Below are positions 1 through 4,697 of a DNA stretch of 40,107 bases, piece by piece. Position 1 is the first letter of the stretch. Every line of letters begins with the position of its first letter. The DNA is from a bacterium UBP8_UBA817 (GTDB taxonomy: Bacteria; Margulisbacteria; Marinamargulisbacteria; SXXA01; SICP01). The position numbers and the translations under genes were made by a program. The notes beneath the pieces were generated by a model. That model was not told the origin of the DNA. It saw only the letters and a program-made list of their open reading frames with translations, and did no database searches. The DNA lies in assembly GCA_945898045.1 (NCBI GenBank), contig CAMDGG010000002.1, positions 83,231 through 123,337 of the forward strand, in the 5' to 3' direction.

Positions 1-733
1 CATTTGCTACACGAAAAAGAAGTTCTTTTGTAAGACAGGTATAGAGGATACAACCAGCACTCCACATATCAATCGCAGACGTATAAGGAACCTGCCCCCG
101 AATAACCTCTGGCGCCATATAATATCGTGACTGAATTCGTCCCCCTTGAGGAATTTTCTCTCCCATAACATAAGAAAAACCAAAATCCCCCAGCTTAAGA
201 ACATTGTCCTTGGTAAGGAATATATTTTCTGGTTTTAAATCGCCATGAATAATTTGTTTTTGAGCCAAAAACGCTAAAGCAGAAAGCATTTGCTTGGCAT
301 AAGAAATCACTACCTGCGGCTCCAACCCATTTTCACTCGCCAGAATCCGCTCAAATAGATCCCCTCCCCCACAATATGAAAGAAGAAGAAATCGGCCATG
401 CCTAAAATTTTTACCATCTGAATTACTCGATTTTAAAACGTCGAAAAAATCGGGTGACAATTGCCCAGAATCCCAAAGAGTCACAATATGCTCTGAATTT
501 TTAACCCGTTCTAAACTTCTTTGTTCTCTTTCAAAATTTTGCGCTTCAAGAACACCCCTTTCATGTAGTTTAGATTCAAAAAAAACCTTTAGCGCCCCAA
601 ACACCCCTGGCTCATGCTTAGATTCAACCAAAAAAACAGCCCCAAAACTACCTTGACCAATTTTTTCAACTGCCACCTTGAATTCACTAAGCGCAAAAGG
701 TCTTAACCCTGCAATAACTTTTTTTTGAAACAT
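1..733 (-). CDS. Hanks-type Ser/Thr protein kinase, C-terminus cut by window edge
   Basis: The 244 visible codons read through without a stop and run off base 1, so the C-terminus is missing. Kinase motifs are in the usual order: glycine loop GQGSFG at residues 26-31, ATP-binding Lys49 in the ALKV context, catalytic loop HGDLKPEN with Asp165 and Asn170 (HGD instead of the commoner HRD), DFG at 183-185 and APE at 207-209. It should phosphorylate Ser/Thr on cytosolic proteins; no membrane segment is visible in this part. The start is an ATG behind GGGAGAAG. It lies 75 bases downstream of a second kinase gene and shares that gene's opening MFQKK and its whole leader, although the rest of the two proteins is only distantly similar. 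Substrates are unknown. Confidence 0.9.
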   Translation of the reverse strand, partial: MFQKKVIAGLRPFALSEFKVAVEKIGQGSFGAVFLVESKHEPGVFGALKVFFESKLHERGVLEAQNFEREQRSLERVKNSEHIVTLWDSGQLSPDFFDVLKSSNSDGKNFRHGRFLLLSYCGGGDLFERILASENGLEPQVVISYAKQMLSALAFLAQKQIIHGDLKPENIFLTKDNVLKLGDFGFSYVMGEKIPQGGRIQSRYYMAPEVIRGQVPYTSAIDMWSAGCILYTCLTKELLFRVAN

Positions 734-802
734 ATCTTCTCCCGAAAAAAACTTTAATCAGTAAGTTATCGGAAAAAATTCAAAAAAAATTTCAGGCTAG
801 GC
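707..802 (-). repeat. Duplicated kinase leader, copy 1
   Basis: Ninety-six bases here match 1673-1768 with one mismatch (position 718). The unit covers the first nine or so codons of the kinase at 1-733, its ribosome-binding site and all of its upstream region. It ends in GCCTAG on the minus strand, which in the other copy is the last codon and stop of holA. Copy 1 therefore appears to carry a fossil of the holA end, as expected of a tandem duplication. Confidence 0.9.
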
Positions 803-808
803 CGGAAA

Positions 809-1699
809 CTATACCGTCGTTTTCAGCCCATTGTGGGCGGCCAGCACTTCCAAAGATGCGTGTGGAAGAGAAAAAGCTTTGCCAAAACAAGCCAACGCAC
901 GTTCTGCAGATATCCTTCTTGAGGGGCTTATGTCTAACATGCTTCTCACCCACACTCTTAGATTTTTAGGAAGCGCCGAAAGAACTTGGTCATTCTGCTG
1001 AAGAGAAGTCGCCATTGCCACAAATGGATAATCACCTTTTGCATTTTGTTCAACAGGCATCCTTCCAGTAAAACATTCATAAATAAGAAGACCTAAAGAA
1101 AAGACATCAATCGCTTTAGTGTAAGGGTATTTACCTTCAACAACCTCTGGAGCCCTATTAGCATCACTCTGAATTCGACCTTTTATTCTACCAGCATCTT
1201 TTTCATAAAAAGCACTGCCCATATCGCCCAGAACAAACTCGACAAATTCACCTTTCTCTCTAATAAAGATATTTTCAGATTTTACATCAGAATGGACAAT
1301 TCCTTTACTCAACAAAAACAACAATGCATCAAGCATCGCGCTAGCCACGGACTTCGCGAGAGACTCGCGATATATTGGGGAAAAGTCAGGTTCTCCCATA
1401 AATTCATATAAATCACTTTTACATAATTCAAATACCAAACCCCACCCCCTGTCTTTTATAGGTGTGGTAGCTAATAATTTCACGCAACTGGGTGTTTGAC
1501 TCGCCAATTCACACATAGACCGTTCTTTGGAAAATCTATTGTCACCAAAGACCTTAAAAACCTTTAAGGCTACAGGCTGTCCATTAATGCTTGCTTGATA
1601 AACCTCGCCAAAAGTACCTTCTTGCAATTTTTTTTGTATAACCATGGGTTCTTTCACTTCGCCGGTTTCTACCCCTGCAATAATTTTTTTTTGAAACAT
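809..1699 (-). CDS. Hanks-type Ser/Thr protein kinase, small cytosolic form
   Basis: A 296-residue protein that is almost all kinase domain, with no membrane segment. The glycine loop is QEGTFG (26-31), where the first glycine is replaced by Gln. Lys46 lies in VALKV, the catalytic loop is HSDVKSEN (Asp138, Asn143), the DFG motif is DMG (159-161), and APE is followed by the YTKAIDVFSLG helix. The catalytic Lys, Asp, Asn and DMG Asp are all present, so activity is likely despite the unusual motifs. The ATG follows GGGAGAAG. It is a tandem paralogue of the kinase at 1-733, lies downstream of holA on the same strand, and has the same leader as that paralogue. Confidence 0.92.
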   Translation of the reverse strand: MFQKKIIAGVETGEVKEPMVIQKKLQEGTFGEVYQASINGQPVALKVFKVFGDNRFSKERSMCELASQTPSCVKLLATTPIKDRGWGLVFELCKSDLYEFMGEPDFSPIYRESLAKSVASAMLDALLFLLSKGIVHSDVKSENIFIREKGEFVEFVLGDMGSAFYEKDAGRIKGRIQSDANRAPEVVEGKYPYTKAIDVFSLGLLIYECFTGRMPVEQNAKGDYPFVAMATSLQQNDQVLSALPKNLRVWVRSMLDISPSRRISAERALACFGKAFSLPHASLEVLAAHNGLKTTV

Positions 1700-1768
1700 A
1701 TCTTCTCCCGAAAAAAACTTTAATCAGTAAGTTATCGGAAAAAATTCAAAAAAAATTTCAGGCTAGGC
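1673..1768 (-). repeat. Duplicated kinase leader, copy 2
   Basis: This is the partner of 707-802, identical at 95 of 96 positions. It includes the last codon and stop of holA, the holA-kinase intergenic region and the first codons of the kinase at 809-1699. On the minus strand it contains a T-rich stretch, a TTGAAT that could serve as a -35 box (with no convincing -10 at normal spacing), and the GGGAGAAG ribosome-binding site close to the ATG. Confidence 0.9.
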
Positions 1769-2728
1769 AACAAATTTCAAAACGGTCTGCTCAAGTCCAA
1801 TCCGAGGCTTAATTTTCCCCGTTTTAATCGCTACGTCTAATTCTGCAAAAAAACCAAACACATTACGCAAATGCTGCACCGTATAATGCCTTTTGATCGG
1901 CCCCAAAAGCTTCTGCAAAAAGAACGGACTTTTCCCCAATTTCTGCCCCATCTGCTGAGACGTCAATTTCATCTCATCTAGAACCAACAATTGATAATAA
2001 AGTCGCAGCGTAGCCACCAAAAGCCCCATCAATCGCAACGGCTCTTCACCTTGATCCAATAACCTAGAAAGAGACATCATCACTGACGAAACTTTTCTAT
2101 CCCGCAACGCCTCGGTCAACAAAAACGCACTCGCATTGCCAGCGCCAGACACAGCCATAACATCCGCCACCTCAATTTTTGTACGTCCCCCCAAATACAC
2201 CACTAACAACTCCAAAATTCCAGACAACTGACGCAAATCCACCCCGCCAATCTGTTCCATAGCCACAAGGGCATCCATAGAAATCTGCTTACCCATCGAA
2301 GCCACTTTGCCACGCAACCACTGAAGAACTTTATCTTGTTCCCAATCTTTAAACGACAAAAATTCTTTGGTCACTGCCAACTGCTTCAACGTCGTACATA
2401 ATTTTTTGCGCATATCCGGCTTCTTAGCCCCCATCCAAACAACCACCACATTCGGACCCAAAGCCGCCTGACGAAACAACTCCGCCCAACGCGCAACATC
2501 CGGCGCATCCAACGTCTCCCCCAAAGCAGACAGCTCTTTTATTACTATCAATTTGGCAGGGCAAAACAAATCCTGAGAAGCCACCGACATCTGCAACGCA
2601 GAAAAATCTACTTTATCTTTAAAAAAATCCTTTTGATATCCAGAATATTTGGCCCTAATTTGCGCCACATACCCATCCACCAAAAACGTTTCTTCCCCAT
2701 AAACAAAATGCAAAAATCCATTAGACAT
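1763..2728 (-). CDS. holA: DNA polymerase III delta subunit
   Basis: A 321-residue protein matching the HolA family in length and layout. The delta subunit is part of the clamp loader and opens the beta sliding clamp. The N-terminal segment (HFVYGEETFLVDGYVAQI) is the typical HolA opening. The middle holds the degenerate AAA-like domain (LIVIKELSALGE, then VVVVWMGAKKPDMRKKL), and the C-terminal helical collar includes GGVDLRQLSGILELL and a RIGLEQTVLKF end. It is divergent from comEA with a 48-base gap. A TATATT element (2736-2741) lies seven bases before the ATG and no Shine-Dalgarno sequence is visible, so the mRNA may be leaderless. Confidence 0.9.
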   Translation of the reverse strand: MSNGFLHFVYGEETFLVDGYVAQIRAKYSGYQKDFFKDKVDFSALQMSVASQDLFCPAKLIVIKELSALGETLDAPDVARWAELFRQAALGPNVVVVWMGAKKPDMRKKLCTTLKQLAVTKEFLSFKDWEQDKVLQWLRGKVASMGKQISMDALVAMEQIGGVDLRQLSGILELLVVYLGGRTKIEVADVMAVSGAGNASAFLLTEALRDRKVSSVMMSLSRLLDQGEEPLRLMGLLVATLRLYYQLLVLDEMKLTSQQMGQKLGKSPFFLQKLLGPIKRHYTVQHLRNVFGFFAELDVAIKTGKIKPRIGLEQTVLKFVA

Positions 2729-3401: not shown

Positions 3402-4697
3402 ATGAAAGAAAATACAATAAAACAACTCATCCAAGACTTTCACAATACCCCCCTACCAATACCCAAAATACGCGCCCTCAATAGTCCTCTCGACACAAAA
3501 AAAATCCTGTCTATCGTAGGCCCAAGGCGCGCTGGAAAAACCACCTATTGCTTTAGCCTGATCCAGCAACTCATTCAATCAGGAAAACCCCTTTCTCACA
3601 TTCTGTACATTAATTTTGAAGACGAACGACTAGACCAAACCACCGAAGAGCTAGACTGCATTGTGCAACAATACCAAATCTTATACCCCGAAATACACCT
3701 CCAAGACTGCACTTTCATCTTTGATGAAATACAAAACATCCCCTTATGGGAACGTTTTGTCAGACGTATTTATGACCACACCTGTAAAAATATCATCGTC
3801 ACAGGATCAAATGCCAAAGCATTAAGCAAAGACATTGCAACGAGCCTCAGAGGCCGAACCCTATCGTACGAAATACTGCCCCTATCATTTAAAGAATACC
3901 TAGAATTCTTAGGCAGCACGACAACCCCTAGAACTACAACAGAAATAGCAAAGGTACAAAACCATCTCAACACCTATTTAATCTACGGTGGCTTTCCAGA
4001 AACAGTTGAATTTGATCCCCATCTAAAAATAAAAATTCTACAAGAATATTTCGAGGTCATGATGTATCGGGACATAGGAGAACGTGCAGGAATATCACAG
4101 AGCAGCCTACTACGATTCTTTCTCAAAAGAAGCTTCTCAAGCAACACAAAATCCTACTCAATCAATAAAATTTATCACGATCTAAAATCGGCTGGATACA
4201 AAATTGGAAAAAATAGCCTATACGAGCTTGCAGAGCTATGCAAACAAGCGTATGTATTTTTTACGGTGCCAAAATACACCCAGAAAATAGCCAATATTGA
4301 GCTGGGTGAAAAAAAAATATTTGCAATCGACAACGGCATTTTAACGGCACTAGGCCTGTTAGCACCCACAGAAGTGGGAAAACAAATGGAACAAGTCGTT
4401 TTTCTGGAAAGCTATAAACGGTACGGCGGAAATCTTTTTTTTGATGCCAACGGCTACGAATGCGATTTGTTGGTGGGCGAATGGGATAGCATACATACAG
4501 CCATCCAAATCACACAAACCCTAGAAGACCCTTCTGTTAAAAAAAGAGAAATCAAAGGATTGCTCTCAGCATGCAAAAAAACACACCTAAACGAAGGGCT
4601 CCTCCTAACCCTTCACGAAGAAGCCACATTCACAGAAGACGGGGTAACCATCCAGGTTAAACCGTTATGGAAGTGGCTTCTAAATACCCCCCATTAA
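3402..4697 (+). CDS. DUF4143-family AAA ATPase 1
   Basis: A 431-residue protein of the widespread bacterial/archaeal AAA_14 plus DUF4143 family. Walker A is GPRRAGKT (40-47), Walker B is FIFDEIQ, and a sensor-1-like VTGSNAK follows. The C-terminal DUF4143 half usually contains a nuclease-like E-x-D...E-x-K signature. Here ECDLLV keeps the Asp, but the second element reads AIQITQ where the family has IE-x-K, so this copy has probably lost that putative nuclease centre. The biological role of the family is unclear. It ends two bases from the convergent pyruvate carboxylase gene. Two further family members lie in this window (31803-32930 and 38881-40062). Confidence 0.85.
   Translation: MKENTIKQLIQDFHNTPLPIPKIRALNSPLDTKKILSIVGPRRAGKTTYCFSLIQQLIQSGKPLSHILYINFEDERLDQTTEELDCIVQQYQILYPEIHLQDCTFIFDEIQNIPLWERFVRRIYDHTCKNIIVTGSNAKALSKDIATSLRGRTLSYEILPLSFKEYLEFLGSTTTPRTTTEIAKVQNHLNTYLIYGGFPETVEFDPHLKIKILQEYFEVMMYRDIGERAGISQSSLLRFFLKRSFSSNTKSYSINKIYHDLKSAGYKIGKNSLYELAELCKQAYVFFTVPKYTQKIANIELGEKKIFAIDNGILTALGLLAPTEVGKQMEQVVFLESYKRYGGNLFFDANGYECDLLVGEWDSIHTAIQITQTLEDPSVKKREIKGLLSACKKTHLNEGLLLTLHEEATFTEDGVTIQVKPLWKWLLNTPH

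Follow-up and report, generated by a model that had tools for sequence, protein, structure and literature searches.

For the T6SS effector-immunity arrays of Vibrio cholerae, homology-facilitated illegitimate recombination has been proposed (PMC5361080), with a conserved upstream anchor, a new module placed beside it and the older gene pushed downstream, all in the absence of a dedicated integrase. We describe a locus that appears to share these properties in a 40,107-nucleotide stretch of the genome of a bacterium of the Margulisbacteria, UBP8_UBA817 (hereafter the window), where two tandem kinase genes, A and B, lie next to holA. Two features of a displacement array are found here, an identical holA/leader anchor and, at the other end, a non-homologous joint, kinase B stop-TTTCCG-GCCTAG. 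In contrast to the T6SS arrays, what stays constant is the untranslated leader together with nine codons and the whole catalytic body is variable, and the presumably displaced kinase gene retains the leader and start in full. In integrons, gene cassettes are likewise added at a fixed upstream site; however, the slot described here carries no integrase gene, and its repeat is a 5' leader with start codons rather than a 3' recombination site. An integron-like cassette was rejected, as the surroundings of the slot on contig C2 yielded no recombinase gene and the genome only two tyrosine recombinases, located on contigs C3 and C6.

The repeated 5' module and its two kinases

Upon searching the window for repeats, we found that positions 704-802 and 1670-1768 form a direct repeat with 97 of 99 bases identical and a spacing of 966, which is the sole direct repeat of at least 30 nt within 6 kb spacing across the 40 kb. 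Both copies are 5' modules read on the reverse strand. The one at 1670-1768 adjoins holA and consists of the last holA codon and stop, the leader (1700-1762) and the first codons of kinase B, and the second (704-802) stands ahead of kinase A, with its leader at 734-796. Each opens with GCC TAG, the end of holA (797-802 and 1763-1768, antisense), and the two 63-nt non-coding leaders do not differ at any position (0/63). The identity ends in a sharp edge at codon 9/10 of the kinases; when the genes are aligned by codon, they agree at 96% of nucleotides over codons 1-9, and beyond codon 9 the values are 47% in nucleotides and 30% in amino acids. The preliminary description had reported a one-base difference between 707-802 and 1673-1768, the last codon and stop of holA preserved in the first copy, and kinases alike only at family level past nine codons, and our alignments reproduce all of these. 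It had also anticipated further leader copies to the left of base 1, and these were not found: kinase A ends there and a convergent M24-type peptidase gene follows, and in a search of the source genome (a 28-contig draft of 1.24 Mb, 84% complete) the leader unit was detected at these two sites only, the next-best match being of 21 bases (E 0.006).

The conserved upstream anchor, holA, encodes the DNA polymerase III delta subunit (1763-2728, reverse strand, stop at 1763-1765; PF21694 and PF06144 above cut-off). Kinase B (809-1699, reverse strand, 296 aa) has a single Hanks-type kinase domain (PF00069, 114.8 bits), and kinase A (1-733, reverse strand) is cut by the window edge and intact in the genome (C2:82989-83963), ending 242 bases left of window base 1, with 164.7 bits to PF00069 for the full protein of 324 aa; both exceed the PF00069 cut-off of 31.7 bits. 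The two proteins share 29% amino acid identity over 302 residues, and no domain besides the kinase domain was recognised in either. In the sequence and alignments, kinase A reads LKV, HGD, DFG and APE at the beta-3 lysine, HxD, DFG and APE motifs, and kinase B reads LKV, HSD, DMG in place of DFG, and APE, with an altered Gly loop in which the first Gly is replaced. The third-position GC content (GC3) of both genes is low, at 31-33% versus a mean of 42%. A phage or viral source was rejected, as IMG/VR yielded neither a leader match nor a close kinase relative, and the phage matches of kinase A reach at most 26-32% identity among the matches listed.

The new junction occupies 797-811 on the reverse strand, with the kinase B stop at 809-811, TTTCCG at 803-808 and the holA-derived GCC TAG at 797-802. 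On its two sides, the native upstream context with holA sits with kinase B, and kinase A is followed by the native downstream flank, 88% identical to that of the sister species G001, and then by the convergent peptidase gene, whose M24-type name is taken from its sequence, without a profile.

Several other genes of this neighbourhood can be recorded separately. An AAA_14/DUF4143 ATPase gene (3402-4697), which the candidate defence model PDC-S01 matches strongly at 312 bits, sits between a ComEA-like and a pyruvate-carboxylase-like gene, and an AbiLi/AbiLii-like defence pair (L021:9697-11636; 264 and 97 bits; GC3 29%) is inserted ahead of a folC-like gene; both are absent at the G001 locus. A 320-aa protein (L021:5467-6429; GC3 31.5%) shows a weak N-terminal TIR_2 match and no PADLOC match. 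A DUF559 gene (L021:16228-16644), located beside thyA at a distance of a few kb from the slot, is flanked by two direct repeats of about 100 bp and about 90% identity (L021:16124-16775; G000 C2:80123-80774), which are partly palindromic and look like a palindromic intergenic element; G001 has a single copy of this repeat and no DUF559 gene.

The slot in related genomes and the age of the copies

Among the genomes searched, G001 is the only congener (holA 94% identical in amino acids) and G002 is a relative at family level; neither contains a clear orthologue of the kinase A or B body. In G001, one leader copy follows holA and differs from the window leader at 11 of 63 positions. It is succeeded by MFQRKIIAGV, 36 further open residues, transposase remnants, the tail HVDQKTVAAFTGLKTLV* and the conserved flank. 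The 36-residue stretch contains a Gly-loop-like motif and resembles neither kinase A nor kinase B, and no Pfam model recognises this fragment of about 36 codons. The insertion-sequence remnant in the G001 kinase slot comprises DUF772 and DDE transposase pieces (L059:10600-11220, G001 C17), and in the tail behind it, 9 of the last 18 residues match those of kinase B in register, a score reached by none of 200,000 random tails. To judge from these roughly 36 codons of a broken gene, G001 probably had a third kinase body behind the same module.

In at least five genomes of the class (G002, G014, G017, G021 and G026), holA lies directly against the peptidase gene, without a kinase. As the slot is empty in these genomes, its insertion most likely dates to the lineage of this genus. 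The interval from holA to the peptidase gene would thus be a young insertion slot, with a stable 5' module of leader plus nine codons and kinase bodies that turn over. In G002, the gap itself (L060:6710-6850, G002 C11) contains a palindromic element whose arms are close to CCCCTCTCTGTGCCAAAGAGGGG and CCTCCCTCTTTGGAACAGAGAGGGAGG.

We next consider the age of the two modules. Copies older than the split between the two species should differ at about 11 of the 63 nt, and these do not differ at all (Poisson 1.7e-5); with 95% confidence, their divergence is at most about one quarter of the species distance. The leader is not ultra-constrained, because 11 of its 63 sites differ from the copy of the sister species. 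The bodies of kinases A and B, on the other hand, are separated by 2.27 substitutions per site; for an orthologous kinase, the two species are only 0.085 apart. Judged by these sequence distances, the leader copying is thus recent and the body divergence old, and one plain duplication cannot give both. The preliminary description had argued that a simple old duplication fails to explain the pattern, and the comparison with the sister species upholds this, with 0/63 differences here despite 11/63 to the sister and bodies about 2.3 substitutions per site apart. Of the explanations that it put forward instead, recent leader copying is supported by the 0/63 differences, and gene conversion keeps a place among the rivals weighed below. 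The idea of different bodies behind one leader gains from the third, broken body in G001, and that of dedicated cassette machinery gains no support, with no recombinase gene found by the slot and no further copies.

Routes to the tandem pair

On balance, we consider it probable that the locus arose by a recent tandem join of two strongly diverged slot alleles at the young insertion slot between holA and the peptidase gene. Behind its 63-nt leader and nine codons, the slot would hold a Hanks-type kinase body that can be exchanged. Incoming DNA with the other allele would pair by homology over holA and the leader, and its far end would be joined illegitimately, right after the kinase B stop, to the last codon of holA. 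Such a join would copy the leader and leave the native downstream flank with kinase A, so that each kinase would have its own leader. If the 99-bp repeats later recombined, one unit could be lost and the locus reduced to one kinase, and the tandem would then be an intermediate of allele replacement. This recombination route is one that we infer, and by analogy with the T6SS arrays kinase B, next to the anchor, would be the newer allele. DNA uptake is plausible, because ComEC is present (in all three genomes) and the ComEA-like gene, with SLBB and helix-hairpin-helix domains, adjoins holA.

The main rival to the tandem join is an old tandem duplication in which gene conversion, limited to the 5' module, has repeatedly homogenised the leader and the first codons. 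We regard it as rather unlikely, though conversion stopping at the end of homology would explain the sharp edges, and a tandem pair in another genome of the phylum, G053, keeps leaders of 91% identity in front of bodies with 28%. Within the set, kinases A and B are also mutual nearest relatives, in a tree with weak support; for kinases this diverged, both E-values and tree placement are weak beyond the family level. This reading is at odds with the sister species, which has a single leader and a body fragment unlike either kinase, and with the slot being empty outside the genus, which leaves little time for 2.3 substitutions per site to accumulate within it.

It is improbable that one kinase unit was recently duplicated in tandem and that recombination with a foreign kinase then exchanged one of the two bodies. 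The end structure would be the same, and body turnover does occur at the slot, but two events are called for where one suffices, and the second exchange would have to take place despite little homology between the bodies (47% in nucleotides). An assembly artefact that joined two strain variants of a mixed metagenome is more improbable still. The source is indeed a draft of 28 contigs and 84% completeness; however, a strain with a single allele would show the peptidase flank behind the kinase B stop, an assembler could not produce the unique junction of kinase B stop-TTTCCG-GCCTAG out of two alleles that each occur singly, and reads of a common length, 150 bases, would presumably exceed the 99-bp repeat. 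That one body of a recent duplicate diverged to an extreme degree, or was mutated in a targeted manner, has next to no likelihood, as nothing more than the identity pattern itself speaks for it and several indels, along with some 2.3 substitutions per residue, would have arisen with zero leader changes; hypermutation of the bodies is excluded on the same values (0/63 in the leader).

Predicted leader hairpin, possible function and related loci

We also examined the folding of the leader. A tentative hairpin is predicted at 1685-1762, and equally at 719-796 (reverse strand), in which the U-rich leader arm pairs with the Shine-Dalgarno region and codons 2-5. The U-run covering the Shine-Dalgarno sequence is predicted in both species (z -2.45 and -2.11), with most of the hairpin pairs kept in G001 and no two-sided changes, and against the GC trend of local genes the leader is only 1.2 standard deviations more stable. 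These results lend weak support to a fold of the leader over its own Shine-Dalgarno sequence, and a hairpin that reaches the first codons would explain why the conserved module includes them. The predicted pairing of a U-run with the Shine-Dalgarno sequence in both species recalls FourU RNA thermometers; unlike these, the leader has no Rfam match and no two-sided changes, and its helix is longer and extends into the coding region. A search of the leader for known RNA families gave no Rfam match up to E 5.

Upon comparison with defence models, the best PADLOC model for both kinase domains is Mad6 of the methylation-associated defence system (MADS), with 197 bits for kinase A and 136.5 bits for kinase B, 60-80 bits above the next model. 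The resemblance is partial, as the kinases of 324 and 296 aa are about half the length of the 659-position model and, at 84.7 and 72.4 bits, fall far under the cut-off of 460 of the NCBIfam Mad6 equivalog, a model of 612 positions. In addition, no other MADS gene was recognised in the neighbours scanned: the four other neighbours matched mad3 and mad8 weakly at most, and in each case another model scored higher. A plain Mad6 assignment was therefore rejected, given the missed NCBIfam cut-off and the other kinases of the phylum that also match the PADLOC mad6 model. The neighbourhood contains further genes with defence-model matches that are absent at the G001 locus, and a defence role for kinases A and B, possibly against phage, is a reasonable guess.

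When approximately ten tandem or adjacent kinase loci were inspected across the phylum, a shared leader was absent at most of them. In G053, 44-bp leaders of 91% identity (C6; L134:2568-2611 and L134:4463-4506) lie directly ahead of two tandem kinases with 28% amino acid identity, and G053 contains no copies of this leader beyond these two; behind each kinase lies one member of a pair of 270-aa paralogues, which are 30% identical to each other. A second G053 kinase pair shows a weaker leader match of 75%, and the pair in G007 is an ordinary one with similar bodies. In G007, direct repeats of 85 bp and 96% identity (C108; L135:447-530 and L135:4934-5018) flank two related kinase genes and a rubrerythrin-like gene.

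A broader suggestion, which we hold to be doubtful, is that the Margulisbacteria possess a class of single-gene immune slots, in which an invariant, RNA-regulated 5' module acts as both translation switch and recombination anchor, with the G053 kinase pair and its shared leader as the second instance. Kinase bodies would there be swapped by cycles of addition in front and loop-out, without a dedicated recombinase. If the tandem join is right, allele replacement at a rapidly changing kinase locus would have been caught half-way, in a state that still displays the two alleles, their junction and the anchor, and the locus would offer a simple test in natural populations of integrase-free accessory gene swapping in bacteria. 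A leader common to strongly diverged paralogues could then mark recent recombination and not the age of the paralogues.
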